Positions 28,750 through 55,097 of a stretch of DNA of 64,000 bases are shown one piece after another. The stretch is from NCBI GenBank assembly GCA_021157965.1, contig JAGGVO010000041.1, forward strand, positions 1 through 64,000. Direction: 5' to 3'. The stretch comes from Candidatus Neomarinimicrobiota bacterium (GTDB lineage: Bacteria > Fidelibacterota > Fidelibacteria > Fidelibacterales > Fidelibacteraceae). The notes beneath the pieces are model-generated. The model was given only the letters and a program-made list of their open reading frames with translations. It did no database searches and was not told the origin of the DNA. A program made the translations under genes and the position numbers. Position 1 is the stretch's first letter; every line of letters begins with the position of its first letter.

Positions 28750-30162
28750 TTATCGCTTCACCGATAGACGGATTTGCCAGATTGTATTTTTATCATCCAA
28801 CCCGTCTGCATTTTCCACACCCCACACCAGGGTTGGGCAAATTCTATTGAATCCCCACTGATATTCAAAACCGGCCTGGACAAAATAACAGGTCAGTGAG
28901 GGAATATCCCAGGTAAAATGCAGGGGCACCTTTTCCGCACTGATGCCTCCGGTATAGGAAACAACCGGAAAGGGATGAATGTCAAAATCAAAAGAGACTC
29001 TCCATTCGTTTTCTTCACGGGTAAGGTTTTGTGCTTTCAGATAATTCCGGTAATCCCACGAACGTTTTCCGGCACGAGCCATAATATCCAAACGGGTATT
29101 CTTTATACCGCTAAATTCCAATCCGATACCACCCAAATACCGGGATTCATCCGTTTCAAAGAAAAGTGCTTCGTATATCCCGGTTTTGCCCCAATCCTCA
29201 ATATTTATCACCGTGCCGAAAATACTCCAGGATGCCTTTGCTTGTTTATAATTCAGCCAAATCTGTCCTTCAGATGTATTACGCTGCCAATATCCCCGTT
29301 CGGAAGCAACACTTTTTTTGCCTTTCCGGGCGTCATTCTCTTCGGTACCCACTGAAAATCCCAGATAGGCAGAAAACGGACTGTCCTGTTTTTCCAGTAG
29401 CAGTCCCGTTCCCAGTTCATACCCATCTTTATTATGTTCCATCTCAACAGAGGAACCGGGGTTTTCCATACGGTAAGCCAGATAACCAAACCAGGTTTGA
29501 ACCTGGGCATCCTGGTATTCCTTGACAGCTTCAAGAGCAGTCCGCCCGTGATAGCGTCGGAACCACCCGTCTACAGAAAGAGATGATATTGGCCTGATCC
29601 GCAGGGAATTTGTTACATCACTGTTCAGCTCACGGGATTCCGCCCGGGTAAAAACATCTTTGATTCCCCGTTCAACCCCATAATTGATGCCAAGGCCCCA
29701 GGTGACCCGTTTTCCGAAATCCCTGGAGAAGAAAAAATCAATCAGGGGACCGTTGTACCGGAAATCGCCGGATGTCGTATCGGTAAATCCAATATAGGTA
29801 GCATAATAATTCTTTTCAATTGAACGGAACTGCTGCTTATGCCAGGCGTTTCCAAAATCAATTGCCGCATAGAGAGCTGTTTTTTCATTCAGTTTGCGAT
29901 ATGTTTCAAACATGGCGCCATAACTAAATACGGCTTCCGGGTCAAAGGATCTTTGGATATTCTGTGATTTATAACCGGTGTAAATCACGGTATTCATGCC
30001 TTCAGAATGGTTATACGTTTTAAAATGAAGGGGGTGCCTGTCAAAATCCCACAATGTATTCCAGGATTCCGGAACAGAAATACCGATAGAATTGGTATAA
30101 CCATAACCCGTAGATAAGGCAATCAATAACAGGAACATAAGTTGTCTGATGAATCTATTCAT
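28750..30162 (-). CDS. Outer-membrane beta-barrel protein of receptor cassette 1 (DUF6850-like)
   Basis: A 470-residue predicted barrel. The frame is open to 30408, but that part lies within the lipoprotein gene; ATG at 30162 starts the signal peptide (MNRFIRQLMFLLLIALS) and overlaps the upstream stop by eight bases. The rest is made of short amphipathic aromatic strands (GLGINYGVERGI, WFGYLAYRMENPG, FVQAGFEYQWGF). It occupies the same place as the gene at 42145 in the paralogous cassette, with limited similarity (GYEL segments). In Bacteroidetes, DUF6850 barrels occur next to DUF4876 lipoproteins, which supports the assignment; the family name is from memory and not checked by search. Confidence 0.65.
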   Translation of the reverse strand: MNRFIRQLMFLLLIALSTGYGYTNSIGISVPESWNTLWDFDRHPLHFKTYNHSEGMNTVIYTGYKSQNIQRSFDPEAVFSYGAMFETYRKLNEKTALYAAIDFGNAWHKQQFRSIEKNYYATYIGFTDTTSGDFRYNGPLIDFFFSRDFGKRVTWGLGINYGVERGIKDVFTRAESRELNSDVTNSLRIRPISSLSVDGWFRRYHGRTALEAVKEYQDAQVQTWFGYLAYRMENPGSSVEMEHNKDGYELGTGLLLEKQDSPFSAYLGFSVGTEENDARKGKKSVASERGYWQRNTSEGQIWLNYKQAKASWSIFGTVINIEDWGKTGIYEALFFETDESRYLGGIGLEFSGIKNTRLDIMARAGKRSWDYRNYLKAQNLTREENEWRVSFDFDIHPFPVVSYTGGISAEKVPLHFTWDIPSLTCYFVQAGFEYQWGFNRICPTLVWGVENADGLDDKNTIWQIRLSVKR

Positions 30163-31276
30163 GGTGATATCCGGGGGTTGGTGTATCAAGAATGATAAAA
30201 TCGATAGTACTGTTATCCGTATCAAAACCGGGTTCAATACGTTCAATGGATTGTCCACTGTACTTAATGGCTCCCACACCGGCCCACCCGGCATCCAGTT
30301 CTTCTGTAATATCTTTAACATTCGTGGACGAAGAGCTGTATTCCACGACATCGATGATTGTTTCCATATCGATACCATCTGCGTAATTGATATCCCGGCC
30401 GTCTGCAATCAGCACCACATCATTCCCAAGAGCAATCATAAAATCCCGCCGGTGTCCCTCTTCGATATTATCGAGGTTCGGTACATCCGGATTGTCTGTG
30501 TCGGCATAATCCTGTGAATTCACAAATTCCCAGTCTGCATCTGATAAATCAATGCTGTTCACAAGCGTATCATTCCTCTGAACGATCACATGATTCATGG
30601 CATCCTGGGCCAAAACGACAAATTCTCCGGGTTCTACGGGATATTCACGACCTGTCACAGGCTCACCGGGAAATTGAAAAATATAGGTGACATTATCCGC
30701 GCCGATGGTACAGGATCCCATCCGACACACAATCATTCCGTCCAGATAGATTGTTTCAGAAGAGGCATTATACAATTCAATAAATTGATCAAAGAAGTAA
30801 AAAATCTTATTGGGGGGACCCATGTAATATATTTCATTAATCTTGAGTCCGGGATTTCCGCTGACACGTACTGTCAGCGTGTCGGTTACCGGGACTTCAT
30901 CATGAACGTAAAACTCCTGTTGTCCCGTAACCCGGGAAGTATCAAGGGCATTATCAAAGGGGTAATCAACGCCCACACTGGCTATATAATAACCATTTAG
31001 CAGACTATCGAAACAGACCCATCCGCTGTCATCGGTGTATCCGGTCCTTACAAAACCTTCATAATCCTGGTTTGTCAACACAACCGGGATTCCCGGTAAA
31101 ACAGCACTCTGCCCGTTAAAAAACTTCCCCAGAGAAGTTGTATCCAGGCGAATCATCAGGTTTTTCTGCTGCGTTCCCTCATATTCCGGCGGCTTATCAT
31201 CCACTTCCATACAAGAAAAGAGAAGGAAAGCCACAACACATAAAAAGGCGATCAGTTTCATAAAATGTTTCACCAT
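30155..31276 (-). CDS. DUF4876-like lipoprotein of receptor cassette 1
   Basis: A 373-residue lipoprotein with a signal peptide ending at LLFSC. Residues about 35-130 are a carboxypeptidase-like beta-sandwich (PGIPVVLTNQDYEGFVRTGY). The main part carries the DUF4876-type sequence INEIYYMGPPNKIFYF, DQFIELYNASSETIYLDG, VVLAQDAMNH and SIDLSDADWEF, which resembles a lamin-tail Ig fold. The start codon overlaps the receptor stop by seven bases (ATGGTGA). It is a paralogue of the protein at 43638. It probably sits on the outer membrane as a partner of the upstream TonB receptor, like a SusD-type substrate lid; that role is inference. Confidence 0.78.
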   Translation of the reverse strand: MVKHFMKLIAFLCVVAFLLFSCMEVDDKPPEYEGTQQKNLMIRLDTTSLGKFFNGQSAVLPGIPVVLTNQDYEGFVRTGYTDDSGWVCFDSLLNGYYIASVGVDYPFDNALDTSRVTGQQEFYVHDEVPVTDTLTVRVSGNPGLKINEIYYMGPPNKIFYFFDQFIELYNASSETIYLDGMIVCRMGSCTIGADNVTYIFQFPGEPVTGREYPVEPGEFVVLAQDAMNHVIVQRNDTLVNSIDLSDADWEFVNSQDYADTDNPDVPNLDNIEEGHRRDFMIALGNDVVLIADGRDINYADGIDMETIIDVVEYSSSSTNVKDITEELDAGWAGVGAIKYSGQSIERIEPGFDTDNSTIDFIILDTPTPGYHHE

Positions 31277-33819
31277 TGCGTACTGACCTCCAGTCCGTAA
31301 TAAATGGGCACATTCAATTTATAAATATTTCCCCGGTAGGGATCAATCCATATACCCGGATCATCAAAGAGATTGTTTACGTACAGTGACACTTCCGTGT
31401 TTTGTCCCACCGATTTACTCAATCGTGCATTTACAATCCAATGATCACCATATTCCCAGCGTTCAGCATCATACCAGTATGTCATTCCCTGGTAGAGAGT
31501 AACCGGGTGATCTTCGAGGACTGTTTCAATGGAATTCGATTTGTAAACAGTTCTTTTTTGATCAAAGGGGATATACTGCAGATCCACCGTGAACCATACG
31601 CCCAAAACCTGATTAATATATGATGTTTGCTGGCCGAGGATGATTTTGTGTTTCCAGGTTTCGTGATTGGGGACCCAGATTTCTTCCCATGAGGTATCCA
31701 CGGAACTGTCGTAATACCGGCCCTCTTTACCCCGGAGAGAATAGCGATACGTGGCATTGAATACAAACTTCAGATTCTTAACCCGCTTTGTTTTCAGGGA
31801 AAATTCAACCCCCCTGTCTTTACTCCAGGCGGCATTTTCCATCAGGCTGTAGGTGAGAGAGGTAAGGGTATCGGGGTTGATTTCATATCCGACAGGATAA
31901 GCTATCGTAGAAGGTTGATCCTTCGATTCCTGATAGTAGGCTGTCAGAGTCAGTCCAAGCCAGTCCGTTGCTTTCCAGTCCAGACTGGTTTCCAGCTTGT
32001 CCGTATAATAAGACTTCAAATCCGGGTTCTGTTGTTTATATTCCACTTCCACCCACTGGGAATCAATGAAAGTCTGGACATAGGCTGAATTCCGGTATAC
32101 ATGGCTCAGGGAAATCGACTTGACACTGCGTCCTGCACCAAATCGCCAAAAAAGACCATCCGCCAGTTCGATCCGGGTATTGAAACGCGGGCTTAGAAAT
32201 TCTCCCTGACGTGCATTCAGAAAAGAAACATCGTCCCTGCCGATGCTTATATCCAGCCCGCGGACGTTGATAGCGTCATAACGCAGGCCGAGCATCATCT
32301 CAACAGAACGGTCATTGACCGTCCATTTCCAGTTCCGTTCACCGTACACACTGAATTTTGGGAAACCGGGATAAACATCAAACGAGTAGCTCCGGCGAGT
32401 GCTGTAAGCACCATAGTAGTTGTAAATAGAATCCAGATGAACGCCGCTGCCGGTATTTTTCTGATAGTTGAATTCCAATCCGAAGAGAGTTCCGGTTTCA
32501 TTCCCGTTTTTCCGTTTGACCGTTTTGTCCCGAAGCAGCTTGTAGCTTATATCCCACTCTCTGCCGTCTTCCCAGAGCTCACCAATATACCCGTAAACCG
32601 TATCAATCTGATCATTAACCCACCGGCTGCGGTAGTTATTCTTGCGGTTCATATCCACATTGAAATAGTTGGAATACATCAGTTGTGGATCCGGTTTGTA
32701 TTTCAGGATGAGTCCGCCGCTTGTTCTGTAATCATGGCTATGGCGCCCTACTTTATTGGCATCTGTCGGTTTTTCATCATCCAAAGACCGGGTATATCTT
32801 CCTTTCAGCACATAATTCAGCTTTTTATCAAAAGCTTCACCGGAGTAAGCCGTACTCAGGTAGAAGCGGTGATATTCATCGCCCTTTTTCCGGATATTCC
32901 GTTCGCTGTAGGCGTAGTTTACATGGTAATCCAGCGTGCCTCCAAAGGGAACCTTCAATCCGCTGCTGAAACTGGCACCCTTGGTATCGGGGTTGAATTT
33001 ACCTTTCAGCCGTGAACGGACCTGACCCCGTTTTGTTTTAACCTTAATCACGCCATCGGCAAAATTGCTGTATTCAACAGAGGGAATACCGGTAATGACT
33101 TCGACACTTTCAATATCGTCTGCGGGGATGGTTCGCAAATCGATACCGGAAGTAAGGGAACTGCTCATTCCGGTAATCATGGCGTCGTTATTGATTACGT
33201 TGCCATCCACCATCACTGTTGTCCCGAAGGTCTCGTTTCCGGACAAGGTAGTATAACTGCTCGCCACTTTCCGGATACCAATGCTTTGATCTGAGGACAG
33301 GCCAATCTGCCGGGATTTTTCCACACCGGGAACAAGGGTCAGAACATCACCCAGATTATCGGCCTGGAGATGATCAATTTCCCCGCTGTCAATACGGCGT
33401 GTTGTCACCATCTCGCTCTGGATAACATCCTTTTCCACGGCCTTCACTTCGATACCGCCGATCATAAAACAGTATTCAGAATTCCAGCGCCCTTTTTGAT
33501 TGATCAGGCGGATTGTTACATCATACGTTTGATCCTGTAAAACATCAAAATCAAAAAGGCTGTTATTGTAGAACCCTTCTTTCAGGGCTGCCAGCTTATA
33601 CCGTCCGGGAGGGACATCCCGGAACATGAAAAAGCCTTCTTTATCTGACATCGTTTCCATCTGGAAGTTGTCGTCTTCAGGATCTTCAAGCACAATCAGT
33701 GCTTCGGGGATCACGGCTTTATCCATGTGACAAATGACTTTACCCCTGATCACCGAGGCCGAAGCCCCGGCGACAAGGATCAAAAGTATCAGGCAAAAAT
33801 GTAAAAGTCTTTTCTTCAT
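31270..33819 (-). CDS. TonB-dependent receptor of cassette 1
   Basis: An 849-residue outer-membrane receptor. ATG at 33819 overlaps the stop of the membrane-protein gene (ATGA); an in-frame GTG at 33837 is less likely. Signal peptide MKKRLLHFCLILLILVAG, then a carboxypeptidase-like domain (VIRGKVICHMDKAVIPEAL), then a plug with RIDSGEIDHLQADNLGDVL, IPADDIESVEVITGIPSVEY and VKTKRG, then a barrel. The plug is clearly paralogous to that of the receptor at 44786 (RINSGEIEHLQASSLGDVM, IPADNLEKVEVIRGIPSVKY). The ligand is unknown. Confidence 0.87.
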   Translation of the reverse strand: MKKRLLHFCLILLILVAGASASVIRGKVICHMDKAVIPEALIVLEDPEDDNFQMETMSDKEGFFMFRDVPPGRYKLAALKEGFYNNSLFDFDVLQDQTYDVTIRLINQKGRWNSEYCFMIGGIEVKAVEKDVIQSEMVTTRRIDSGEIDHLQADNLGDVLTLVPGVEKSRQIGLSSDQSIGIRKVASSYTTLSGNETFGTTVMVDGNVINNDAMITGMSSSLTSGIDLRTIPADDIESVEVITGIPSVEYSNFADGVIKVKTKRGQVRSRLKGKFNPDTKGASFSSGLKVPFGGTLDYHVNYAYSERNIRKKGDEYHRFYLSTAYSGEAFDKKLNYVLKGRYTRSLDDEKPTDANKVGRHSHDYRTSGGLILKYKPDPQLMYSNYFNVDMNRKNNYRSRWVNDQIDTVYGYIGELWEDGREWDISYKLLRDKTVKRKNGNETGTLFGLEFNYQKNTGSGVHLDSIYNYYGAYSTRRSYSFDVYPGFPKFSVYGERNWKWTVNDRSVEMMLGLRYDAINVRGLDISIGRDDVSFLNARQGEFLSPRFNTRIELADGLFWRFGAGRSVKSISLSHVYRNSAYVQTFIDSQWVEVEYKQQNPDLKSYYTDKLETSLDWKATDWLGLTLTAYYQESKDQPSTIAYPVGYEINPDTLTSLTYSLMENAAWSKDRGVEFSLKTKRVKNLKFVFNATYRYSLRGKEGRYYDSSVDTSWEEIWVPNHETWKHKIILGQQTSYINQVLGVWFTVDLQYIPFDQKRTVYKSNSIETVLEDHPVTLYQGMTYWYDAERWEYGDHWIVNARLSKSVGQNTEVSLYVNNLFDDPGIWIDPYRGNIYKLNVPIYYGLEVSTQW

Positions 33820-35075
33820 TTCCTTTCCGAGTGCCACACGGGCACATAAATGTAAACCATGCAGGCGATGAGTCCATATAACCCGGTAACGGCCACGAGC
33901 ACCAGTTCAGGTATGGACTTTTTCAGCTTGCGTTTTTCTTTTTTCAGAAAAATGACAAATATAAGCAGGGCAATGATATTCCCGATCCAGGCCAATGGAA
34001 AATGCCAGTCCGCATAGAGCCCCACATAAGTTGTGGAACCATCATTCAGTGAAATGGAGAAGGGAAAGATCGCCCGTGCAATTTTTCCCTGCGGGAATTC
34101 TTCCCGGGTTTTCCAGGATTCATGATATTCATCGATCAGGTTATAATCCCGGTCCGTTACGAAAACATCGATGCCGTCTTCCTTATCCAGAGTCACCTGG
34201 CGGAAAAAGAGATCGGTCGTGATAAGGAGTATTGCTTTTCCACTGTCATAAGCTCCTTTTGTGGGCAATTCTACAGGCTTATATTCGTCATAGGTTAAGA
34301 AATAAATCCTGTCATCCTCAGATATAATGGTTCCGTAATACTCCTTAAGGGTATTTTCGGTGACCATCATGTGACGAATTTTGATATCCTTCGGAAAATG
34401 TGTATTGGCAACAACGGGTTGGCCTTTCGCTTTTTTGATATGGTAAAGGTCATCCTTTGCGTCCACAACAAAGCACCCTTCGTCAAAAGCCTTCCGGGTC
34501 GTGGGATTTGTAAATATCTTTTTGGCCGGAAATTCAAATCCTTTTTCTTTCAGCGCTTGTGTAAAAAGGGCGCTCATCTCTTTATCCACTTTCCGGGTAA
34601 TGCTGTTGACAAATTCCATACCTTCATCGGTGATCCGGAAATATTCATCGGGAAATTCGAGCCGCACACGGCCGGATTCAGATTCCAGGAGGGGATAAAG
34701 AGGTATCTGGGGAATATCCAGCTGATAGGGTTTTAACCGGTGCATATTCCGGTTCTTTTTAATTTCATTCACATCCAGTTTGATACCGTGGATGGATTCG
34801 GGCATTCTCCCGTCGGAGATCAATTGCATATAGTAGAAAAATGGGAGCTTTGCCTCATATTCGTCCCGGGTATAGATGTTCCCTTCTTCATCCAGGAACA
34901 CCAGCTTGTTATCTTTCCGGCGGTGCATAAAAAACATGGAATCCACCGGTGAGAAAGAGACATAAGGTGAGGGTGTTTTCACGTCAAAGAAAAGCCAGTA
35001 AAAATCGGGAAGGTAAATGGCCATAACCACAATGGCAACGAGTATTAATGTATAGCGACTGATTCGAACAATCAT
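33816..35075 (-). CDS. Membrane protein with large extracytoplasmic domain (DUF4857-like)
   Basis: A 419-residue protein with one membrane segment at about 6-24, a soluble domain of about 320 residues, and two membrane segments near the end (about 350-370 and 385-408) separated by the basic stretch KKEKRKLKK. This layout and its place after an ABC ATPase and permease and before a TonB receptor resemble Bacteroidetes DUF4857 proteins; the name is from memory and not checked. It overlaps both neighbours by four bases. It is likely the third part of the transporter, with the large domain in the periplasm, perhaps as a link to the receptor. Confidence 0.62.
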   Translation of the reverse strand: MIVRISRYTLILVAIVVMAIYLPDFYWLFFDVKTPSPYVSFSPVDSMFFMHRRKDNKLVFLDEEGNIYTRDEYEAKLPFFYYMQLISDGRMPESIHGIKLDVNEIKKNRNMHRLKPYQLDIPQIPLYPLLESESGRVRLEFPDEYFRITDEGMEFVNSITRKVDKEMSALFTQALKEKGFEFPAKKIFTNPTTRKAFDEGCFVVDAKDDLYHIKKAKGQPVVANTHFPKDIKIRHMMVTENTLKEYYGTIISEDDRIYFLTYDEYKPVELPTKGAYDSGKAILLITTDLFFRQVTLDKEDGIDVFVTDRDYNLIDEYHESWKTREEFPQGKIARAIFPFSISLNDGSTTYVGLYADWHFPLAWIGNIIALLIFVIFLKKEKRKLKKSIPELVLVAVTGLYGLIACMVYIYVPVWHSERK

Positions 35076-35743
35076 TTAAAGACCCCCTTTTTAAAGCGGT
35101 GACCGGAATAAATAACAGACACTGAGAGGAGGATTGTCAGAATCAGCATTCCGATCAGAACCCTGTCGTAAATATTATAGAACCATCCATACAGAAAGAG
35201 TTTTCCGAATCCCACGGCAAAAAGAATATAGAAAATGCGCCGTTTCCACAGCGGCTCCAGAATCACATACGAAGCCAGAGAATAGGCGGTCAATCCCAAA
35301 AGATACCAGGGAACCGTAGTGAGAAACGCACTGTGGACAATTTCCGCCGGAAAATAGGTATATCCGACCAGCAGAAAAACCAGGGAATACACGCCGAACA
35401 TGGCCAGCAGGGAAACAAAACCAATCCCGGCCATAACCAGTAACACGTTGTATTCATCCACAGGAAGGTGAAATGTCAGTTTAATCCGTTTACGCTGAAT
35501 TTCGGGGACAAACTGAACCGCTGCAACCACAAGTCCTGCCAGGAGGGGCAGATATCGAAGGGTCGTATAGAATTTCACGCCCCTGAAAATGATATTATAC
35601 CAATAGCTGGCAGCTTCATAGAATTTATACGAATGCCCCACGGAAGCAAATACATAAATGATGGCTCCCGCAAAAAGTAATCCCATGGCCAAATAGGCCC
35701 ACCGGATTTTTAACCATTCTTTATAGAATATGTTCTTTATCAT
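35072..35743 (-). CDS. ABC-2-type transporter permease
   Basis: A 223-residue inner-membrane protein with about six membrane segments. The N-terminus MIKNIFYKEWLKIRWAYLAM is the amphipathic elbow helix seen in ABC-2 exporters and ABC-type membrane parts of the NosY/YhgE kind. The ATPase gene ends eight bases upstream, and the next gene overlaps by ATGA. It should form the channel with the upstream ATPase. The cargo is unknown. Confidence 0.75.
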   Translation of the reverse strand: MIKNIFYKEWLKIRWAYLAMGLLFAGAIIYVFASVGHSYKFYEAASYWYNIIFRGVKFYTTLRYLPLLAGLVVAAVQFVPEIQRKRIKLTFHLPVDEYNVLLVMAGIGFVSLLAMFGVYSLVFLLVGYTYFPAEIVHSAFLTTVPWYLLGLTAYSLASYVILEPLWKRRIFYILFAVGFGKLFLYGWFYNIYDRVLIGMLILTILLSVSVIYSGHRFKKGVFK

Positions 35744-35751
35744 CTCTCCTC

Positions 35752-36639
35752 CTAATACTTCCCGGTTATGCCGATAAAGGCATCTTCCAGTGTCATGGGG
35801 ACTTCCCTGAAATTATCGTAGGCAATACCTTTATCTTTCAGGTATTTTTTCACATCTTCCGGGGATTTGAATGAATAAACCGAGGCGTGATTCTTCACCC
35901 GGTCATAATTGGTAATGACATCATCTTTTGTCAAATTCACCGGGCCGTTTTTTACCTGAAAATCATACTGTCGAAAATGGTTCATAAAGTAATCCATTGA
36001 AGAGGAGTGTAAAACTCCTTCATATCCCATGATCACCACATCATCAATCAGGCGTTCCATATCCTGAATAATGTGGGAAGTGACAAAAATGGTTTTGTTT
36101 TCAGCTTTGCCGTATTCTGCCAGGAATTCGACAAAAAGACGCCGGTATCCCGGATCAAGCCCCATGGAAAAGTCATCCATAATCATCAAATCCGGATCCT
36201 GTGCCAGAATAAGTCCTAAGGCAACCTGGCTTTGCTGTCCGCAACTCATGGTGGATATTTTTTGCTTTTCCGTAATTTTAAGCTTGCTCATGAGTTCATA
36301 ATAGGGCTCTTTTTTCCATTGGGGATAAAACTGTGAATAAAATTTCTCGATCTGGTAGATATTCATAAAATCATACTGAATATGTCCCTCCAGAAGAAAT
36401 CCTACTTTTGATTTGGTTTCAGGACTCAGATACTGAGAGTTTTCGCCCAGGATAAAGCATTCCCCGGCTTTGGGCTCCAGAAACCCGTTCAAAATGTTAA
36501 TGGTGGTGGTTTTACCCGTTCCGTTCTTGCCAAGAAGTCCCAGTATTGAACCGGTCTTAATATTAAAACTCATGTTCTCGTAGACCTTCTTGTCTCCGTA
36601 ATAGTGTGTGAGATTTCTACATTCTACAGCGTATTCCAT
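35752..36639 (-). CDS. ABC transporter ATP-binding protein with altered signature
   Basis: A 295-residue cytoplasmic ATPase of the ABC-2 exporter class. ATG at 36639 follows AGAGAAAG; the open frame to 36720 includes a Cys-rich stretch that is not homologous to anything and is rejected. Walker A is GLLGKNGTGKTTT (about residues 37-49). The signature is MSCGQQSQ in place of LSGGQ, and the Walker B end reads LMIMDDFSMGLDP, with Asp where the catalytic Glu is usual. The C-terminal 80 residues carry an accessory domain (GPVNLTKDDVITNYDRV). These changes may slow ATP hydrolysis. It heads the five-gene run that ends in the second receptor cassette. Confidence 0.82.
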   Translation of the reverse strand: MEYAVECRNLTHYYGDKKVYENMSFNIKTGSILGLLGKNGTGKTTTINILNGFLEPKAGECFILGENSQYLSPETKSKVGFLLEGHIQYDFMNIYQIEKFYSQFYPQWKKEPYYELMSKLKITEKQKISTMSCGQQSQVALGLILAQDPDLMIMDDFSMGLDPGYRRLFVEFLAEYGKAENKTIFVTSHIIQDMERLIDDVVIMGYEGVLHSSSMDYFMNHFRQYDFQVKNGPVNLTKDDVITNYDRVKNHASVYSFKSPEDVKKYLKDKGIAYDNFREVPMTLEDAFIGITGKY

Positions 36640-36949
36640 ACACTTTCTCTTGGTTATGTGTTTAGAGTGTTTACAGCATAAGCAATTTTCGCAAACTATC
36701 CGATAAATGACAAGCATCAATTTCAGAAAATCTTATATTTTTGCAACAATATGATAATTTTTTTTCAAAATTCCTGTACTTTATAAAGACAAAACCAGAA
36801 TATGGGCACACATAGTAAAAACATTGCGCGTTAATAATATACAATACGTGCATAAATATACACAACTGTTCAAAAACAATATCTTGTGTTTTCAGGAGAA
36901 TTACCGGTACGCCGGGAGAGGAGTTTTTCGGCATACCGGTAAGTTATTT
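36640..36949 (-). other. Non-coding gap between the ABC operon and the M16 peptidase gene
   Basis: About 310 AT-rich bases on the minus strand. It holds the stem-loop at 36901-36942 just after the M16 stop, and presumably the promoter of the ABC genes. No convincing -35/-10 pair could be picked. Short open frames here lack ribosome sites and are rejected. Confidence 0.55.
36901..36942 (-). terminator. Long stem-loop after the M16 peptidase gene
   Basis: TTACCGGTACGCCG and CGGCATACCGGTAA form a 14-pair stem with one mismatch around a 14-base loop. It starts seven bases after the M16 stop on the minus strand. A T-run is lacking, so it may terminate weakly or protect the 3' end of the transcript. 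Confidence 0.5.
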
Positions 36950-39793: not shown

Positions 39794-39881
39794 CTGTCTC
39801 CTCATCTTTATATTATGTCCCATTGAGCGCATTTCGTTTCAATATCCCGAGGGTATACTCTTCTCACGGTTGACGGTTGCC

Positions 39882-42128
39882 TCAGGGTGTAATGGGATTG
39901 TTGGCGCCTTCTTTCAGGCGGTTATAGCTTTTCAGGGCTTCTTTCCGGACGGCCTTCGGCGTTTTGGGATCGGCAACTATTTTTAAAAGTGCTCCTTCGG
40001 CAAGCCCGGGGGCATCCGGATTCAGATGATACCATCCCAGAGCTTCCAGTGCAACAGTCCGGATATATTCACTTTCTTGAGGTGATGCTCCATATTTCAG
40101 CAGGACGGAAATGGCTTCGGGAAACTGGTAGTTTCTAAAAATCCGGATCTGCCTGTTTTTCTCTTTATCTGTGAGTGTTGTATCTTCAAGGGACTTAAGT
40201 AAATCGTCGTAAAGGCGGTGGTTTGAACTTCGGTCCAAACGTTGAATCGTCTCATTAATACGTGACAGTTCATTGTCGGTTTTAATATCATTACGATAGG
40301 TATAGCAGGTTTCCTGTTCATCGGCCAGAATAATTTCCAGGGCTCCCCGGGCGGCAAAGCGGACCCGTTTGGAAACATCGGATTCCACGGCGCCGGCCAA
40401 AACCGGCAGATAACGTTCGTGTCCTGCAGCGCCCATCATATTCATGGAAATACGGCGAATCAGTTCGGACGGATCCTTCGCCGCTTTTTCCAGAAGATCA
40501 TAAAATTCAGGCGTACGGAGGATTGCCAGGCATTTCAGGGCCTGAAGCCGGACGTTTTCCGACGGATCTTCGAGGAAGGTTCGCACCAGAAAGTCCTTCC
40601 CTGCCTTGCCTTCCAGTTCAAACACCTTCCGGACAGCCAGTCCCCGAAGCGTCAGATCTTCGGATTCGAGCAGTTGTTCCCAGATTTTCACATCGTCTTT
40701 ATGATAGGCAAGAAGCCAATCCCACCATACCGTTTCCCGGCTTTGGTTGGAAAAATGAAAGGTGGGATCTCCGATCACATGGTTTTCAAGATACGTGTTG
40801 AACTGATGCCACTGGCCGACTCGCGCCCCCCGGGATATCATGCCGATCAGTTCATTGGGCCAGATATCCTGTTTCACATTGACCGTGTTGGCAACCCCCA
40901 CCAACGTTGCCCCTTCTTCCATGATATAAGTACCGGAAATATAATTTTCCTTAAAAAACTGTCCGTTAAAACATTCGTCAAAAACCACCATTCGCGCCAT
41001 CGGATCCGTTTTTAAGATATCGGAACTGTAGATATCCATCGCCGCGTAATACAGGGAATCTTCCCGAATGGATTCCGGGTCGTAGAGACCTTCAAACCAT
41101 TCATCCTTCACATGATACGCGTCCTGATAATATTTCCGGGACTCTTCAGCCCTTTCTTCACCATAGCGTTCCCGGGCAGTGCGGACTTTGCTTCTGAAAT
41201 GACGTTTAATATACTCTGCCGCCATGGCGGGATTCCGGGGTGTTTCAAGTCCGAGAAGATATTGCGTATCATATCCGCCATGACAGTGGAAAACAGCCAG
41301 ATCCAAATCAGGATGCTGCAATTCATCCAGAAGGATGGATTTTAAATCCTGGCTCATGGTGTGATAGTAATTTTTCAGATAAGCACCCGGCAGGTAGAGT
41401 TGGGGAAACTGTTCCTTCAGCATGTTAAGCTGGTCTTCCCAAGCACTAAGGGACTCACTATGATATCCGTGTCCGGCAAATGTAATCGCATGATCAAGGG
41501 CATTGGATTCATATTTCGCCTCAGCCGCTTTTTTCAGATAAGCAGCGATATCCTCATATTTTTCATCAGAATGGCGGGGGGATATAATCCGTCCGCTGTA
41601 GATATCCTTTTCGATCCGCTGGGGGGAATCGGGCCGCAGGGAGTAATAAAAGAGGCGGGAATCACTGGTATCCTGGCTGATAAAATCAAAACGCAGATCC
41701 GGATCATCGTAAAAACGGTCGGAGGCGATGGATGAGCGCTGCATGTCCTTAAACCTCACCGGATCCATTTTAAAAGCTGAAGTAAGATGCTGGGCATCCC
41801 GGATCATGGGAATGGGGATATCCCCCACAAAAACGGCGCCTTCTGTTGCAGGATTCTTATCAATCATGGCAATGATACTGTCTTTGATTTCACCGGGGTT
41901 CTCCCAGGACTTGCTGAAAAGTGTGGGTTTCATCCCGTCATACCGGAGGGCTTCCAGATAGGCCGTCAGTTCCTCGCGGACATGCTCATGAGTTTTATCA
42001 TCGATAAACACCAGAATGCCGGGTTTTTCACCGGTTTCAGGTGCCAGTTTGCCTGTTTGTACCATTGTGTGAGTACATCCGGATAAGAAGATGAACAGCA
42101 ACGCAAGGGTTGTCATCATACGCTTCAT
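39882..42128 (-). CDS. Clan CD (gingipain/caspase-like) peptidase lipoprotein with HEAT repeats
   Basis: A 748-residue lipoprotein. ATG at 42128 is chosen since it starts a compact lipoprotein signal (LFIFLSGC) ten bases after AGGAG; ATG at 42152 is in frame but has no site. The first 480 residues resemble C25-like folds: GAVFVGDIPIPMI (98-110), HCHGG with His283-Gly284, and VVFDECFNGQ with Cys386, the expected His-Gly...Cys dyad of clan CD. The gap between the two is about 100 residues, larger than usual in gingipains, owing to an inserted charged region. Residues about 480-740 are HEAT-like helical repeats (NVRLQALKCLAIL, LIRRISMNMMGAAGH, RVRFAARGALEII). It overlaps nothing but follows the barrel gene closely. 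Peptidase activity is inferred. Confidence 0.72.
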   Translation of the reverse strand: MKRMMTTLALLFIFLSGCTHTMVQTGKLAPETGEKPGILVFIDDKTHEHVREELTAYLEALRYDGMKPTLFSKSWENPGEIKDSIIAMIDKNPATEGAVFVGDIPIPMIRDAQHLTSAFKMDPVRFKDMQRSSIASDRFYDDPDLRFDFISQDTSDSRLFYYSLRPDSPQRIEKDIYSGRIISPRHSDEKYEDIAAYLKKAAEAKYESNALDHAITFAGHGYHSESLSAWEDQLNMLKEQFPQLYLPGAYLKNYYHTMSQDLKSILLDELQHPDLDLAVFHCHGGYDTQYLLGLETPRNPAMAAEYIKRHFRSKVRTARERYGEERAEESRKYYQDAYHVKDEWFEGLYDPESIREDSLYYAAMDIYSSDILKTDPMARMVVFDECFNGQFFKENYISGTYIMEEGATLVGVANTVNVKQDIWPNELIGMISRGARVGQWHQFNTYLENHVIGDPTFHFSNQSRETVWWDWLLAYHKDDVKIWEQLLESEDLTLRGLAVRKVFELEGKAGKDFLVRTFLEDPSENVRLQALKCLAILRTPEFYDLLEKAAKDPSELIRRISMNMMGAAGHERYLPVLAGAVESDVSKRVRFAARGALEIILADEQETCYTYRNDIKTDNELSRINETIQRLDRSSNHRLYDDLLKSLEDTTLTDKEKNRQIRIFRNYQFPEAISVLLKYGASPQESEYIRTVALEALGWYHLNPDAPGLAEGALLKIVADPKTPKAVRKEALKSYNRLKEGANNPITP

Positions 42129-42144
42129 AAAGAAGATTCTCCTT

Positions 42145-43641
42145 TTATTCATACTTGGGAATGAGTGTAATATTCAAAAGAAATTGATCCCGCCGGGCAT
42201 TTACGATGCGGAGATCATCCATCTCCGCCAACCAGGCATAGGATGCATCCAGGCGGGCGTTAAGGCGTGAAAGAATCTCTACATCGATGGATGAACCGGC
42301 TTTCAGGAGCGTGTTACCGGCTGTCATGGCCCATCTTTCATCCTCCAGAAAAGCCGGGGGAATGCTGTAAAAAGTCTGCTTCAAAAGGGATTCCCCGGAA
42401 ATTTCCTTCAAAACCGCCACATAAAAACGTGATGACAGATTGGCCTCCGGATCCGTATGCGCCTGGAGTTTCGGTCCGGCCATAACCTGTTTCCCGTAAA
42501 TGCCTCTTCCGTGAAAAGAATCCTCACGCCATGTTTCAAAACCTTCCATACACACACCGGCGGTGAGATATGAGGCCTTACCAAGAGTTATTCCGGCAAA
42601 GGCGGACATTTCCGTCAGGGTTCCTTTATACAGCGTCAGGGGAAAATCGGGATGTGTTGCCTCAGACGTCACAGTTTGTCCTTCTGCAGTCAGAACAGGA
42701 GAGATGAAGGATTCCCGGCTTGTTTGGGCAGAAATATCCCAGTTAATCCGACGGGTGGTCCAGGATCCTTGTGGAATGGCATCGGTACCTTCGTCTTCTG
42801 CTTCGCCCCGGCTCCATTCCGCCGTTACTTCTCCCTTCAGAGTTGTCCTGGCCGGAAGTGTGGTTTCAATGCCTGCGGATACGGAAAATCCCTGGCGCGT
42901 CTGGAGCCGTTCATAACTGGTTTGCCCCCGGTAATAGACGGGATGATTGAAACCGCGAAAAAGCATAAAAACGGGGGTGAGATTTTGTTCAAGGCTGTAT
43001 TTTACTGTTTCAATCTCTTCCTTGAACTCAAACAGGGCAGCGGAAAGACTCATGGCCTGCCTTCCGGAACGATAGAGAATGCCGGATGTCAGTTCATAAC
43101 CGTTTCGTTTCACACCGGGTTTGGGAAAATTCTGCTTGATGTGTTCATCCACCAGATATGTCAGGCCCAGTCCTCCGGATAGTGATTCAGACAGGGGTTG
43201 TTGCACATCCAGGGTCCATTGAATTCCGCTCATGTGCCAGTCGCCGGCTGTGGAATCGGCCAGATAGACCGGTATCTGTCCGTTGAGAGTGCTGTTGTGA
43301 CGAAAAAGCCGGTCATATTCCCGGTTTTCCCTGTAAGAAAAGGTTCCGGAAAAGAGTGTTTTGTTTGTCAGGGTTTTATATCCCGCCGCTGTAAGGGTGT
43401 GGTATGTTGCTGCCCCGGATTCAAAAGGGTGGTGAATGGAGCCGGATATATTGTTAAATCCATAACGATACCATGAACCGTTCGGGGCCGGTGCAACAAG
43501 GGATGCCGGATTGGCAAATTCCATGTATGTGGCATGAATAACGGGGGATCCTTTAAAATATTCCACTGGAGAAGCACCGGGAAGTCCCGTTGTCATGCCC
43601 ATGAAGAGGCATAAAACCGTCCACACCCATCGTCTCATCAT
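42145..43641 (-). CDS. Outer-membrane beta-barrel protein of receptor cassette 2 (DUF6850-like)
   Basis: A 498-residue predicted barrel with signal peptide MMRRWVWTVLCLFMGMTTG. Strand-like stretches alternate through the protein (LFSGTFSYRENREYDR, GGLGLTYLVDEHI, NGYELTSGILYRSGRQAMSL, ITLGKASYLTAGVCMEGFE). The start overlaps the lipoprotein stop by four bases. It occupies the third place of cassette 2, as does the gene at 28750 in cassette 1. The exact role is not known; a second barrel next to a TonB receptor could be a surface binding or assembly factor. Confidence 0.65.
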   Translation of the reverse strand: MMRRWVWTVLCLFMGMTTGLPGASPVEYFKGSPVIHATYMEFANPASLVAPAPNGSWYRYGFNNISGSIHHPFESGAATYHTLTAAGYKTLTNKTLFSGTFSYRENREYDRLFRHNSTLNGQIPVYLADSTAGDWHMSGIQWTLDVQQPLSESLSGGLGLTYLVDEHIKQNFPKPGVKRNGYELTSGILYRSGRQAMSLSAALFEFKEEIETVKYSLEQNLTPVFMLFRGFNHPVYYRGQTSYERLQTRQGFSVSAGIETTLPARTTLKGEVTAEWSRGEAEDEGTDAIPQGSWTTRRINWDISAQTSRESFISPVLTAEGQTVTSEATHPDFPLTLYKGTLTEMSAFAGITLGKASYLTAGVCMEGFETWREDSFHGRGIYGKQVMAGPKLQAHTDPEANLSSRFYVAVLKEISGESLLKQTFYSIPPAFLEDERWAMTAGNTLLKAGSSIDVEILSRLNARLDASYAWLAEMDDLRIVNARRDQFLLNITLIPKYE

Positions 43642-44789
43642 TGGGGCACCTCCCCTGGGGTGAGCGATTGGCTGATAATGAAATCAAAACTGCTGTTGTT
43701 GCTGTCTTTCAGGATGACCCGTCCATCCACGGCGACCGTATCCACAATCCGGGAAACAGACTGGGTTGTATAGGCCGGCATGCCACCTGTAAGTCCTGCA
43801 TCGATGGCAGGACTCAGCCGCTTTTTATCCATAAGGGAAGTGTTCTCCCGATAATCTACCCCGTCAATCACACTGGTCACGGGAATCAACAGGCGCTCAA
43901 AATTGTCATAACCGTATTGATAGGGATCTTTGACTTTTACAAGAAGAATCGCATCATTAAAAACGGAATAGAGAAAATCAATACCGTACTTATGATGAAC
44001 CTGGATCATATCTACAGCATTGGGGTTGTTCACATCTCCCTGGTCTTTCACATAGTATTCAAAATCTGCGTCCGTAAGATCGATGGAACTCTTATTGTAT
44101 TGGGCGTGATTAATGGCATCCTGGGCAATAATCACAGCCTCGCCGGGCTCCAGAGGATAATCGGTCCCTGTCCCAGGAAACATATAGGCATGGATGGCAT
44201 GAAGGTATTGATCATCGGCAAAACCATAATCCGTATCGCAAATGATGAGGCTGTCCAGATACTGAATGGTTTCGGAGTTATTGTAAATTTCCAGAAATTG
44301 GTCATGAAAGTAATTGGGGATGGGGTCGGGTTTAGACCCGCTGTAATAAATTTCAGAAATCACCAGGCTTCCGGAGCGGGACCGTGCAAGGGGAACGGTT
44401 AACGTAAGGGTTTCTCCGGGCTCGGCAAAAAGGATCACGTTGGAAGAATCCCCATTCAGGGTCCACATTTCGTTCCGGTTCAGAACTTCCCAGATTTCTT
44501 CCGTTTTCAAGGGGCGGGAGACAGAGATGCTGTAACGGTCAGGAAGGATAGCATTGAAAAGAACCACTCCCTGCGAATCGGTGACGGCTGTAAACTTGTT
44601 TCCATCAGTCAGTGAGAGGAGGGTTACGGTAGCCCCTTCCGTACTATTAAAGGAACCGGTACTGAAAACCGTGGTATCCTGCAACTGAATTTTCAGGTTA
44701 AAATGGGCTGAATGGGGGGATTCGGGGACATCCACACAAGCCCAGGTAAAAAGGAACAGCATGCTGAACAAAAGGGTATACTTTTTCAT
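43638..44789 (-). CDS. DUF4876-like lipoprotein of receptor cassette 2
   Basis: A 383-residue lipoprotein with a signal peptide ending at FTWAC. It has the same parts as the protein at 30155: an N-terminal beta-sandwich (GATVTLLSLTDGNKFTAV) and the sequence ISEIYYSGSKPDP, HDQFLEIYNNSETIQYLDS, VIIAQDAINH and SIDLTDADFEYY. The two are clear paralogues. It overlaps the receptor gene and the barrel gene by four bases on each side, so the three proteins are probably made in equal amounts. Confidence 0.78.
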   Translation of the reverse strand: MKKYTLLFSMLFLFTWACVDVPESPHSAHFNLKIQLQDTTVFSTGSFNSTEGATVTLLSLTDGNKFTAVTDSQGVVLFNAILPDRYSISVSRPLKTEEIWEVLNRNEMWTLNGDSSNVILFAEPGETLTLTVPLARSRSGSLVISEIYYSGSKPDPIPNYFHDQFLEIYNNSETIQYLDSLIICDTDYGFADDQYLHAIHAYMFPGTGTDYPLEPGEAVIIAQDAINHAQYNKSSIDLTDADFEYYVKDQGDVNNPNAVDMIQVHHKYGIDFLYSVFNDAILLVKVKDPYQYGYDNFERLLIPVTSVIDGVDYRENTSLMDKKRLSPAIDAGLTGGMPAYTTQSVSRIVDTVAVDGRVILKDSNNSSFDFIISQSLTPGEVPQ

Positions 44790-47461
44790 TCTTTACCCTC
44801 CCCGAGTGAGAACAGAGGATTCATCTGGACACTCAGTTCAAGGCCGAAATAGAGGTCCGGATTTTGTTTCAGGTAGGATTCAACAGGAGTCCGCTTTCGC
44901 CGGTACAGGGGGTGGGAATTAAAGAAATTATTCACAAAAAAGCTGAGCCGGGCATTGTCGCCGAGTCCTTTTGTCGCCCTGAAGTTAAAGACCCAGATAT
45001 TTTGAATATTTTCAGTTCTGAAATTATATGCCGGTTGTGACCGGACAAAGGCAGATCCTTCTTCTTCCGTGAGGAGCACCCTGTTCCCGCCGGGGGTAAG
45101 ATACCCCACTGCCAGGGAATCCTCCAGCCCCAGGAAGCGATCCCTGTCAAACACTACCTGCTGTGCGGAAAGAGTCGCCCAGGCGCCCAGATCCTTGAGC
45201 CTGAAATCCAGGATGTAGTTAATCAGAAATTTATCCGCTTCCATGGTGATGGGTTTCCAATAGGGTTTGATCCGTTCATCCAGGGTGGGATCATAGCGAT
45301 AGGAGGTGGCATAATCATAGGCATTTTCTTTTTCGCTGGTCGTATAGATATAAGATCCTTCCAGCCGGAACTGCATGTTCAGGGGGGCCAGGGGTCTGGA
45401 TTGTATACTGGCTTCAATTCCCCGGGAATAGGTGGTCAGGCTGTTTTCCCAAACGGAATAGGTGGTAAAAACAGAATCCCTCACCGGCATGGCGGGATCA
45501 TCCCGGTCATATTTATATTCAAAGATCGGCCGGGTCAATGTGGTTGCAAAGCCCTGGTCCGTCACATTGCTGAAGGCTGTCAGGGAAATGCCGAAATTCC
45601 CGATTTTCTGGTCAATGCTGGCTTCAATCTTATTTTGTACGGACGCTTTCAGATTCGGATTTTCCAGGTTGTATATATAGGTGGATACAATAACCCGGTC
45701 GTTGAGAATATCATTGATATCATCCACATCAAAGTAGATGGGATTGGGGTAAAGCATGCCGAGGGAGGGACTTTTGGAGGTCCGTCCGTAGCCAATGCGG
45801 AAACGGGTATCCCGGAAGGGGGAGAGCATGAGGTTAATTCTCGGACTCAGGCCGGAGCCGTGATCCGTCCCGGCAAAGCGATTTTTGCCATACATATCAT
45901 AACGAACCCCCAGATTCAATTGATAATTTACGAGAAACCGGCCTTCAATCTTGTCTTCGGCATAAAAACTGGTTGTGGAAAGGCCGGGGATATCGTCATA
46001 GGGCCGGGGGCGCTCCCGTTTATTGCTGTTTACTGTCGGCGGTTTCAGGGGATCGTAGATCCTTCCTTCACCATCATTAAATTCCAGACGCCAGGTTATA
46101 CCTGCAAGAAAGGTGTGGGTTGTTTTATTGAGGATGAGTTCCTGGTTATAACTTAAATCCTGATAAATATTCCAGGCCCTGCCCTTCACAGAGAGTTCAG
46201 ACATATAATTCTGAACATATATACCCTCCTGCCATCCTTCGGTCATTCTGTCCGATATATAGGTATGGTCCGTACTGATAAGCTGTTTCCGGTATGAATT
46301 CTGCCGGGTCATATTGACGGAAAAATTGTAATCCAATTTTTGGAAAGTGGAGAGCAGATAGGTACTTTGGTTACTGAAACGCAGTGTGTAATCCCGGTTA
46401 TATTTCACCGTTTGGTACAGATCATCCGGACGGAGTCCCCGTTCATCAAAAGAACGTGTATAATAGAGTCTGTTTTTCAGTGTGAGGATATTATCCATAA
46501 GGACGGAGGTCATGCTGATCTGACCGGCCAAGCGCGAATAATTTTCTTCCGGGATACGGATATTGCGCACACTGTGAGCATAATTGGCATTATAATCGAT
46601 TTGTTGTCCGAAAAGAGAAAAACCGCCTCCCAGATTTGCTTCCTGGTTGTTGAAATTGTATTTGATTTTCAGGCTGTGTTGCCGAAGACCGGTTTTTGTT
46701 TTGACATTCACGATACCGGACGTGAGGTCACCGTATTTCACAGAGGGGATCCCGCGGATAACTTCAACCTTTTCCAGGTTATCGGCGGGAATTTGTCTCA
46801 TATCCAGACCGGAGTTGGCAGTTGCCAGCACATCGCCGCTGCTTGTGGTTGTTTTAGTATCCAGCTGTAAATTGGCATTGTTGGACAGAGGAATATTATC
46901 AATAATGATTTGTGTACCGAACAGTTCATTCGATTCCGCATCACTGTCCGTCACATTATTTCGGATAGAAACCTGCTTCTTTTCTGCCATACCGGGATTT
47001 TCAAAACGTTGCCCGGGCACCAGGAGCATCACATCCCCAAGGCTGGAAGCCTGCAGGTGTTCAATTTCACCGCTGTTGATCCGCGTGCTGGTTTCCACGG
47101 CATCCGGGAGCAGTTCCCGTTCGGCCAGAACCACAACATCGCCGATTTTGAAATAATCCAGAACCATTTGAACGGTAACATTTCTGGAACCTTCCGGAGG
47201 GATCGTAATCGTATCGGAGTAGGTTTTATACCCCATGTAGGATACGGTAAAAGGGACATTTCCTGCTTTTAGACGGATACTGAAATATCCATTTTCGTCC
47301 GTACTGCAGCCCGTTTTCTGACCGGGTATCATGACATTGGCCGCCTGAAGCGGGCTGCCCTTTTCATCAAGAACCGTTCCCCGCAACAAACCCGTATCAG
47401 CTCCCATCAAAAGAGATGCCATGCAAAAAGTCGTGAGTATGATTTTCCGGAAGACTCTCAT
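44786..47461 (-). CDS. TonB-dependent receptor of cassette 2
   Basis: An 891-residue outer-membrane receptor. ATG at 47461 has AGGAA just before it and opens a signal peptide (MRVFRKIILTTFCMASLLMG); the open frame to 47530 is rejected. A carboxypeptidase-like domain (LLRGTVLDEKGSPLQAANV) leads into a plug with RINSGEIEHLQASSLGDVM and IPADNLEKVEVIRGIPSVKY, then a large barrel. It is paralogous to the receptor at 31270. It is the first gene of a run that continues through lipoprotein, barrel, clan CD protease and M16 peptidase. Confidence 0.87.
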   Translation of the reverse strand: MRVFRKIILTTFCMASLLMGADTGLLRGTVLDEKGSPLQAANVMIPGQKTGCSTDENGYFSIRLKAGNVPFTVSYMGYKTYSDTITIPPEGSRNVTVQMVLDYFKIGDVVVLAERELLPDAVETSTRINSGEIEHLQASSLGDVMLLVPGQRFENPGMAEKKQVSIRNNVTDSDAESNELFGTQIIIDNIPLSNNANLQLDTKTTTSSGDVLATANSGLDMRQIPADNLEKVEVIRGIPSVKYGDLTSGIVNVKTKTGLRQHSLKIKYNFNNQEANLGGGFSLFGQQIDYNANYAHSVRNIRIPEENYSRLAGQISMTSVLMDNILTLKNRLYYTRSFDERGLRPDDLYQTVKYNRDYTLRFSNQSTYLLSTFQKLDYNFSVNMTRQNSYRKQLISTDHTYISDRMTEGWQEGIYVQNYMSELSVKGRAWNIYQDLSYNQELILNKTTHTFLAGITWRLEFNDGEGRIYDPLKPPTVNSNKRERPRPYDDIPGLSTTSFYAEDKIEGRFLVNYQLNLGVRYDMYGKNRFAGTDHGSGLSPRINLMLSPFRDTRFRIGYGRTSKSPSLGMLYPNPIYFDVDDINDILNDRVIVSTYIYNLENPNLKASVQNKIEASIDQKIGNFGISLTAFSNVTDQGFATTLTRPIFEYKYDRDDPAMPVRDSVFTTYSVWENSLTTYSRGIEASIQSRPLAPLNMQFRLEGSYIYTTSEKENAYDYATSYRYDPTLDERIKPYWKPITMEADKFLINYILDFRLKDLGAWATLSAQQVVFDRDRFLGLEDSLAVGYLTPGGNRVLLTEEEGSAFVRSQPAYNFRTENIQNIWVFNFRATKGLGDNARLSFFVNNFFNSHPLYRRKRTPVESYLKQNPDLYFGLELSVQMNPLFSLGEGKE

Positions 47462-47539
47462 GATTCCTGAGGATAGCCTTTCCTTTTTATTGGCGGTTGG
47501 ACCGCTATACTTTAATATGGAGGTTATCAAACAAGCAAT

Positions 47540-47562
47540 TGACGGTATTTAAAAAACCGTCA
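47540..47562. promoter_or_regulatory. Candidate operator dyad upstream of receptor cassette 2
   Basis: TGACGGT and ACCGTCA are perfect inverted copies separated by nine A/T bases. The centre is about 90 bases before the receptor start, a usual place for a repressor or activator site. No regulator gene is adjacent. Confidence 0.4.
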
Positions 47563-47734
47563 GGATTAAAATTTACAGCATAAGATAATAGTTATAAAGT
47601 AAAACCATGATTTTTTTGAATTATTTTATGGAAAACCAGCAACAAACCGATGATCATTTTGTACTTATATAAAATCCCCTCTCTTTATTTCCGTATAATA
47701 TATTAACAATCATATAATCTTGCTTTTTTCTTAT

Positions 47735-47756
47735 CCGGGGATTATTTTATCCCCGG
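47735..47756 (-). terminator. GC-rich hairpin between apbE and receptor cassette 2
   Basis: CCGGGGAT and ATCCCCGG form a perfect 8-pair stem around a 6-base loop, about 90 bases after the ApbE stop. There is no T-run on the minus strand, so termination would be weak. Confidence 0.4.
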
Positions 47757-47794
47757 GGGTGCATAATTATAAGATTATTCATATATTTCATTAG

Positions 47795-47812
47795 AATTTT
47801 ATCATTATAGGA
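47795..47812. repeat. Intergenic motif shared with the S46 upstream region
   Basis: AATTTTATCATTATAGGA here matches AATTTTATCAT-AT-TATAGGA at 21360-21379 apart from a two-base insertion. Both copies lie in intergenic DNA beside GC-rich stems. Purpose unknown; could be a common regulatory site or a short dispersed repeat. Confidence 0.35.
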
Positions 47813-47847
47813 CTCCGTTAATCGGGGATCGTTAAGGTGAATTGATT

Positions 47848-48992: not shown

Positions 48993-49409
48993 TCACATAG
49001 GGTCTTGTGCTTTTTCACGAAGGGTTTTTAAAATTTGCCATTCGCTGTTTACGGCATCGTAATATTCCCAAAATACCCAACCGTTGGTGTTCACATGAGT
49101 AATATCCATCACGGCAGCCGAAGGCGATTTAAATTTTTTACCATTAAAAATTATCTGTCCCTCGTTCACCTCGGCATAATACTGGATTCCCTTGTATGTC
49201 CCCCGGAGCTTGGTTCCGTTGGGAATAACGGTCCCCCGCACTGCAAGTCCCGGTTCTTCACGTTTTTTTTCCGTTTCGTCCGGCATCAGGGCCGGCAATC
49301 CAAAATTCCGCCTTAATACATCATTGGGCGTTTCCTTGAAAGAACGGCGGCGGCGTTCTATTTCTTTATGTACATCGAAATCGATCAGAATGGTTCGCAT
49401 ATCCATCAT
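48993..49409 (-). CDS. Small protein with SeqA-N-like and RAMA-like domains
   Basis: A 138-residue cytoplasmic protein. AGAGG precedes ATG. Residues 1-40 (MRTILIDFDVHKEIERRRRS, TPNDVLRRNFGL) resemble the ribbon-helix-helix N-terminus of SeqA. Residues about 55-130 (GTKLRGTYKGIQYYAEV, GQIIFNGKKFKSPSAAV, TNGWVFWEYYD) fit the RAMA/DUF4357-type domain found with adenine methylases and restriction enzymes. It probably binds DNA or modified bases. No methylase or nuclease gene is near, and the neighbours (apbE, suf) give no clear hint. Confidence 0.7.
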   Translation of the reverse strand: MMDMRTILIDFDVHKEIERRRRSFKETPNDVLRRNFGLPALMPDETEKKREEPGLAVRGTVIPNGTKLRGTYKGIQYYAEVNEGQIIFNGKKFKSPSAAVMDITHVNTNGWVFWEYYDAVNSEWQILKTLREKAQDPM

Positions 49410-50258: not shown

Positions 50259-50269
50259 GTTTCCTCCTT

Positions 50270-51484: not shown

Positions 51485-51488
51485 ATTC

Positions 51489-53605: not shown

Positions 53606-53627
53606 ACGTATGTCCTTTATTTTCAAA

Positions 53628-55070: not shown

Positions 55071-55097
55071 GGTCTCCTCGGTTTTCATTTGAACGAG

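Follow-up and report, generated by a model that had tools for sequence, protein, structure and literature searches.

Here, we report a comparative analysis of a 64,000-nucleotide stretch of DNA from an uncultured marine Candidatus Neomarinimicrobiota bacterium (contig JAGGVO010000041.1, positions 1 to 64,000; hereafter, the window) that carries a gene island which we interpret as a system for protease-assisted iron acquisition. The island encodes two cassettes, each consisting of a TonB-dependent receptor (rec1, rec2), a DUF4876 lipoprotein (lip1, lip2) and a DUF6850 protein (barrel1, barrel2), along with a lipoprotein that combines a clan-CD-like protease domain with HEAT repeats, an M16 metalloprotease, an ABC ATPase, a permease, a DUF4857 protein, a YCF48-like protein and a membrane polyferredoxin. 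Gene order and co-occurrence indicate that these genes are one genuine, widely conserved system. That it serves some form of iron acquisition is, in our view, quite likely; the specific interpretation, namely capture by two receptors, cleavage of the carrier, reduction of ferric iron and handling of the residue or cofactor by the ABC complex, carries a probability of about 0.55. The evidence that we contribute consists of gene content, conservation, co-occurrence, active-site motifs and the existence of two ancient cassette lineages; the induction of relatives of the core under iron starvation comes from the literature.

The whole island recurs in the same order in three other genomes of the genus (G002, G004 and G005) and partially in a fourth (G006). 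In the sister genus (G011 and G012), rec2-lip2-barrel2 is divergent from ATPase-permease-DUF4857-rec1-lip1-barrel1-clan CD, the M16 gene is missing, and the rec2 cassette carries YCF48 and polyferredoxin genes where the contig reaches that far. Across 245 genomes of the phylum, DUF4857 was found in 28, the clan-CD protein (as a strong match) in 28 and DUF4876 in 39; DUF4876 is present in 28 of the 28 genomes with the clan-CD protein and in 28 of the 28 with DUF4857. DUF4857 and the clan-CD protein occur together in 21 genomes compared to 3.2 expected. Such comparisons, here and in the second phylum, take no account of relatedness, but both phyla show the same pattern and the genes lie physically close together. 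Among 297 Bacteroidota genomes, 29 encode DUF4876, including 6 of the 6 with the clan-CD protein and 10 of the 12 with DUF4857. The neighbors of 80 named DUF4857 loci, many of them on short contigs, include a TonB receptor (53 loci), DUF4876 (45), DUF6850 (40), polyferredoxin (34), a YCF48-like protein (29), the clan-CD protein (17) and M16 (14), and the usual order around the clan-CD gene is receptor-DUF4876-DUF6850-clan CD. An earlier note on this DNA had proposed one envelope system. This view holds for the clan-CD protein, DUF4876, DUF4857 and the exporter, which in two phyla are found together far more often than chance would predict; only the M16 gene behaves as an optional member. In many of the named genomes, the cassettes adjoin the exporter, rather than lying far from the exporter and peptidase genes without co-occurrence. 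Relatives of the window such as L095, L103 and L112, labeled Fidelibacterota in the tree, are Ca. Neomarinimicrobiota.

In the window, an ABC ATPase, a small permease and DUF4857 are encoded together with a TonB receptor and DUF4876, the combination found in a published iron-starvation operon. The Bacteroides thetaiotaomicron genes BT3625-3633 (DUF4857, ABC ATPase, PepSY, two DUF4876 proteins and a TonB receptor) are upregulated 37-128-fold in low iron, and the Porphyromonas gingivalis genes PG1019-1022 (DUF4876 and receptor) 21-215-fold (PMC10434189); in a hemin-response set, the DUF4876 gene of P. gingivalis is likewise highly ranked (PMC10470040). Compared by published annotation, not sequence, these loci resemble the window in uniting the TonB receptor, DUF4876, ABC ATPase and DUF4857 families, with strong iron-responsive induction of the published loci, and differ from it in that no protease is listed, PepSY takes the place of polyferredoxin, and there is a single receptor cassette. 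At the level of the fold, the AlphaFold model of lip1 matches 4Q1Z, the structure of the DUF4876 protein BT_1938 (E 4e-27). The statement in the earlier note that no system with this full set was known is not supported: the core is the published operon, and the pairing of a TonB receptor with an M16 protease is the published idea of protease-associated import (PMC6793856). Elsewhere, the core has iron-type neighbors, namely FeoB with DUF4198 in Desulfobacterota, a FecI-type sigma factor with FecR in Ignavibacteria, PepSY proteins and polyferredoxin, and in the window the island adjoins genes for ApbE, an Rrf2 regulator and SUF iron-sulfur assembly. The iron evidence favors a cargo of iron bound to protein or held in a complex.

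As proposed in the earlier note, the receptors and the lipoproteins are paralogous (28% identity, E 7e-79, and 33% identity, E 5e-41, respectively); the two DUF6850 proteins are scarcely alike (E 4e-4). A tree built from 61 DUF4876 proteins places a long branch with 100/100 support between the lip1 and lip2 lineages, with several phyla on each side, and a recent local duplication of the cassette was therefore rejected. Many genomes possess one cassette type only. The paralogy of the cassettes thus appears to be ancient, and because the lineages are old and separate, the two receptors probably recognize different ligands, contrary to the suggestion of two matched receptors for one ligand. The comparison resolves the island into module A (receptor-DUF4876-DUF6850-clan CD, in many cases accompanied by polyferredoxin and YCF48), in which rec1 is kept in other classes, and module B (ATPase-permease-DUF4857 plus the second receptor cassette). 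The window has the two modules fused, and G202 has them side by side; they are separated by a few kilobases in G201 and G219 and lie on different contigs in G206 and G208. Many Bacteroidales have module A directly joined to ATPase-permease-DUF4857.

The clan-CD-like assignment is putative. The window protein has no Pfam match to Peptidase_C25 and does not reach its cut-off, and weak matches to this family were obtained for 6 of 16 relatives, the best with E 0.0011; the single match inspected in detail (16.2 bits vs. a cut-off of 23) spans the N-terminal half and does not include the Cys. His228, His289, His291-Gly292 and Cys394 are invariant in the 16 relatives, which come from three phyla. 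The AlphaFold model (mean pLDDT 83) retrieved the caspase-like folds of SAVED-CHAT and Raptor in Foldseek, with E-values of about 3e-4 to 1e-3 that are partly carried by the HEAT repeats, along with many HEAT proteins. We predict that the protein is likely to be catalytically active. A role in defense was considered and set aside, PADLOC yielding a weak HEAT match alone.

The closest PDB matches of the M16 protease are 9ldy (E 1e-167), for which a literature search found no paper, PqqL (6ofs, 6e-68) and FusC (6b03, 7e-42). Among characterized proteases, PqqL and FusC are the nearest to it, and both are tied to iron uptake. PqqL is a periplasmic, iron-regulated protease encoded beside a TonB receptor (PMC6793856), and FusC frees iron from imported ferredoxin (PMC6071955). 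The orthologue is linked to the cluster only in the genus of the window. In sister genera, it lies elsewhere or is absent, which rules it out as a core part. In other classes, a different two-domain M16 type is encoded between the ATPase and rec2, and M16 genes are again found near the core in Ignavibacteria. The 14 M16-bearing loci among the 80 represent at least two distinct types; one or two such loci would be predicted from the approximately three M16 genes per 2.3-2.8 Mb genome. Thus, M16 appears from its distribution to be an optional component.

The proposed system works like both Fus/PqqL and gingipain-HmuY and is a member of neither family. With Fus/PqqL (FusABCD and YddB-PqqL; PMC6793856, PMC6071955), the window shares a TonB receptor, an iron-related two-domain M16 protease of the FusC/PqqL type with an HxxEH motif encoded beside the receptor, and an ABC transporter. 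Unlike these systems, its ABC genes form a separate ATPase/permease/DUF4857 set, and it adds the clan-CD/HEAT protein, DUF4876 and DUF6850. It does not belong to the Fus family because FusA and YddB are not among the PDB matches of the receptors at E 0.001 and no TonB-like FusB gene is found within 24090-48876. The gingipain-HmuY-HmuR system of P. gingivalis (PMC3040768) similarly obtains heme iron with a clan-CD (C25) protease that works alongside a TonB receptor and a lipoprotein of the cell surface; however, HmuY and DUF4876 belong to different families, and the clan-CD protein of the window is a HEAT-repeat lipoprotein, encoded with the receptor and weakly C25-like. Membership in the gingipain family is excluded because the window protein and the relatives inspected fall below the C25 cut-off.

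Under the proposed mechanism, two different receptor modules at the cell surface would capture two iron-bearing ligands, with the DUF4876 lipoprotein as the probable ligand-binding partner and DUF6850 as a probable accessory barrel. The clan-CD/HEAT lipoprotein and, in the genus of the window, also the PqqL/FusC-type M16 protease would cut carriers made of protein or peptide, either on the outer surface or within the periplasm, and this cleavage would free iron, heme or an iron-sulfur cofactor, or render it importable. Polyferredoxin, or PepSY proteins elsewhere, would supply electrons for the reduction of ferric iron, and the ATPase-permease-DUF4857 complex would either rid the envelope of the carrier or peptide, or move the freed cofactor. 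In this scheme, we infer the location of each step, the protease substrates, the direction of ABC transport and the exact cargo. Several observations weigh against it. Three related genomes have the M16 orthologue in unrelated neighborhoods, and the sister genus lacks it; catalysis by the clan-CD protein is a prediction, and its C25 matches are weak; an exporter-type ABC pair does not by itself point to import; the receptors are not detectably FusA-like in a PDB sequence search; and the region before rec1 contains a conserved promoter-like block alone, with no convincing Fur-box palindrome or confident site.

The same genes could take up iron or xenosiderophores without nutritional proteolysis, the receptors importing ferric chelates, polyferredoxin or PepSY reducing them, and the proteases only maturing or quality-controlling surface lipoproteins and receptors. 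M16 is often missing from the core and the clan-CD gene is frequently missing too, the receptors show weak similarity to the ferric enterobactin receptor, and XusABC of B. thetaiotaomicron sets a precedent (PMC10434189). We nevertheless hold this explanation to be unlikely, given that the DUF4876 cassette accompanies the clan-CD protein in every genome tested and that distinct M16 types were recruited repeatedly. Iron itself might be the wrong cargo, the response in Bacteroides being indirect and the nutrient being something else such as nickel, cobalt, zinc or a peptide. DUF4198, which is linked to nickel/cobalt transport, adjoins the core in Desulfobacterota; the very strong iron response in two genera and the FeoB and FecI/FecR neighbors make such a cargo improbable. 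The earlier note proposed that proteases make or trim a peptide or release a cofactor, which two matched receptors take in; in a metal-binding version, the exporter and proteases would make or trim a secreted peptide that both receptors retrieve. The best NCBIfam match of the ATPase is indeed the peptide exporter ATPase PmtA, under the family cut-off, and the proteases adjoin the receptors. However, neither a precursor gene nor an enzyme for modification or maturation was noticed within the cluster or next to it, although no search was dedicated to small ORFs; the ABC-permease-DUF4857 unit stands without receptors beside FeoB in Desulfobacterota, the cassettes are separate ancient lineages, and the iron evidence points to bound iron, so that we regard this scenario as very improbable.

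Protease-assisted iron acquisition has a bolder form that we offer tentatively, with the odds somewhat against it. Bacteroidota, Ignavibacteriota, Calditrichota and Neomarinimicrobiota would share a machine for protein-bound iron with a receptor and lipoprotein unrelated to those of Fus or HmuY, in which a gingipain-like HEAT lipoprotein is obligate to one DUF4876 cassette type, M16 proteases were recruited several times independently, and ATPase-permease-DUF4857 is a new envelope iron ABC complex. Fus relatives have been described in Proteobacteria, and the present findings suggest that protease-assisted iron import evolved outside this group too. More broadly, four families (DUF4876, DUF6850, DUF4857 and the unnamed clan-CD/HEAT lipoprotein) are tied into one conserved, probably iron-related system common to marine, sediment and host-associated bacteria, and a testable role emerges for the B. 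thetaiotaomicron and P. gingivalis operons, which are strongly iron-induced and so far unexplained.

The layout of the island is given in Table 1, with transcription on the minus strand running from rec1 through to the polyferredoxin gene and followed by tRNA-Asp (23869-23943). Open reading frames and Pfam confirmed every named piece of the two cassettes previously placed within 28750-47461, including their overlaps of 4-8 bases, and, with hydropathy, the M16, ABC-2 exporter and DUF4857-like genes between them on the same strand. The island reaches beyond that interval, down to 24090, with the YCF48/LTD and polyferredoxin genes as conserved partners. The overlaps are 4 bases for rec1/lip1, 4 for lip1/barrel1 and 8 for barrel1/clan CD in the first half, and 4 for permease/DUF4857, 4 for DUF4857/rec2 (from the ATG start), 7 for rec2/lip2 and 8 for lip2/barrel2 in the second. 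M16 and the start of the ATPase gene are about 310 bases apart, a spacing that suggests two transcription units. A generic promoter scan returned sites no more numerous than in shuffled sequences.

Table 1. Features of the island, in order of transcription
Feature	Coordinates	Strand	Evidence
rec1 upstream region, promoter-like stretch	47462..47847	-	alignment; partly conserved in four related genomes
rec1, TonB-dependent receptor with N-terminal CarboxypepD_reg	44786..47461	-	Pfam Plug 1e-10, TonB_dep_Rec 1.4e-17
lip1, DUF4876 lipoprotein, Ig-like and Lamin-tail-like domains	43638..44789	-	Pfam 7e-33
barrel1, DUF6850 protein	42145..43641	-	Pfam 9.5e-28
Clan-CD-like (C25/CHAT-like) domain and C-terminal HEAT repeats, lipoprotein	39882..42152	-	Pfam HEAT_2, fold model, invariant residues
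M16 metalloprotease, lipoprotein signal, HLLEH motif, PqqL/FusC-like	36950..39832	-	PDB matches, HxxEH at residue 103
M16-to-ATPase gap, about 310 bases up to the ATPase ATG; probable second promoter region	36640..36949	-	block before ATPase conserved in four related genomes
ABC ATPase, Walker A GKNGTGKT, ATG start	35752..36639	-	Pfam ABC_tran 3e-21
ABC-2-like permease, about 5-6 membrane helices	35072..35743	-	hydropathy; adjoins ATPase in nearly all loci
DUF4857 protein	33816..35075	-	Pfam 5.7e-85
rec2, TonB-dependent receptor	31270..33837	-	Pfam Plug 4e-10, TonB_dep_Rec 2.4e-19
lip2, DUF4876 lipoprotein, lipobox LFSC	30155..31276	-	Pfam 5e-19
barrel2, DUF6850 protein, ATG start	28750..30162	-	Pfam 1.1e-11
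YCF48-like beta-propeller, Lamin-tail (LTD) and T9SS-type C-terminal tail	26094..28709	-	Pfam PSII_BNR 1.4e-39, LTD 1.6e-9, Por_Secre_tail 7.5e-8; conserved partner
Membrane polyferredoxin, NapH/NosR-like Fer4_5, long C-terminal domain past last membrane helix	24090..26045	-	Pfam Fer4_5 2e-11

The reading frame of rec1 is open to 47530, with an ATG start at 47461; that of rec2 begins with GTG at 33837, and its true start is likely the ATG at 33819. Both lipoproteins pass the Pfam cut-off for DUF4876 (PF16215; 114.7 and 69.5 bits vs. 27.9), and Cys-18 of lip1 is invariant. The permease has no Pfam match, and sequence searches of the PDB returned no meaningful relatives of DUF4857 or DUF6850. 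DUF4857 has one N-terminal helix (2-20) and two C-terminal ones (359-377 and 391-409), with a large, probably periplasmic, soluble domain between them. DUF6850 is a probable outer-membrane barrel, as inferred from its strand alternation, which stands out for barrel1 alone (z 3.6) and not for barrel2.

Directly upstream of the island lies the SUF iron-sulfur assembly cluster (49497-55088: Rrf2-type regulator, DUF59, SufS-like and SufBD-core proteins), with ApbE, an FMN transferase, between it and rec1 (47848-48876). ApbE was left out of the island: it is upstream in the window and in G005, was not seen in the upstream stretches read in G002 and G004, and is separated from rec1 by a 386-base gap. 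A small RAMA/DUF2924-like-domain protein (48993-49409) adjoins Rrf2 and is kept in G005. On the other side, a Peptidase S46 gene on the opposite strand (21432-23681) adjoins the island, and a plus-strand run (698-20977: a further TonB receptor, a laminin-G protein with a T9SS tail, an MGH1-like glycoside hydrolase, an ABC permease and a zinc dehydrogenase) resembles a locus for carbohydrate use.

Three Desulfobacterota loci (L079, L080 and L082) have ATPase-permease-DUF4857 beside FeoB and DUF4198 with no receptors in view, a minimal version that may be helpful for assigning the function of this complex. In other Neomarinimicrobiota classes (L066, L068, L070, L071 and L078), DUF4857 is followed by an NtrB/NtrC-like pair of sensor kinase and response regulator. 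In the Bacteroidales loci L117-L140, an ECF sigma factor, the small proteins u2 and u3 and an RND-type efflux pump (u4) recur ahead of the polyferredoxin and ABC genes.

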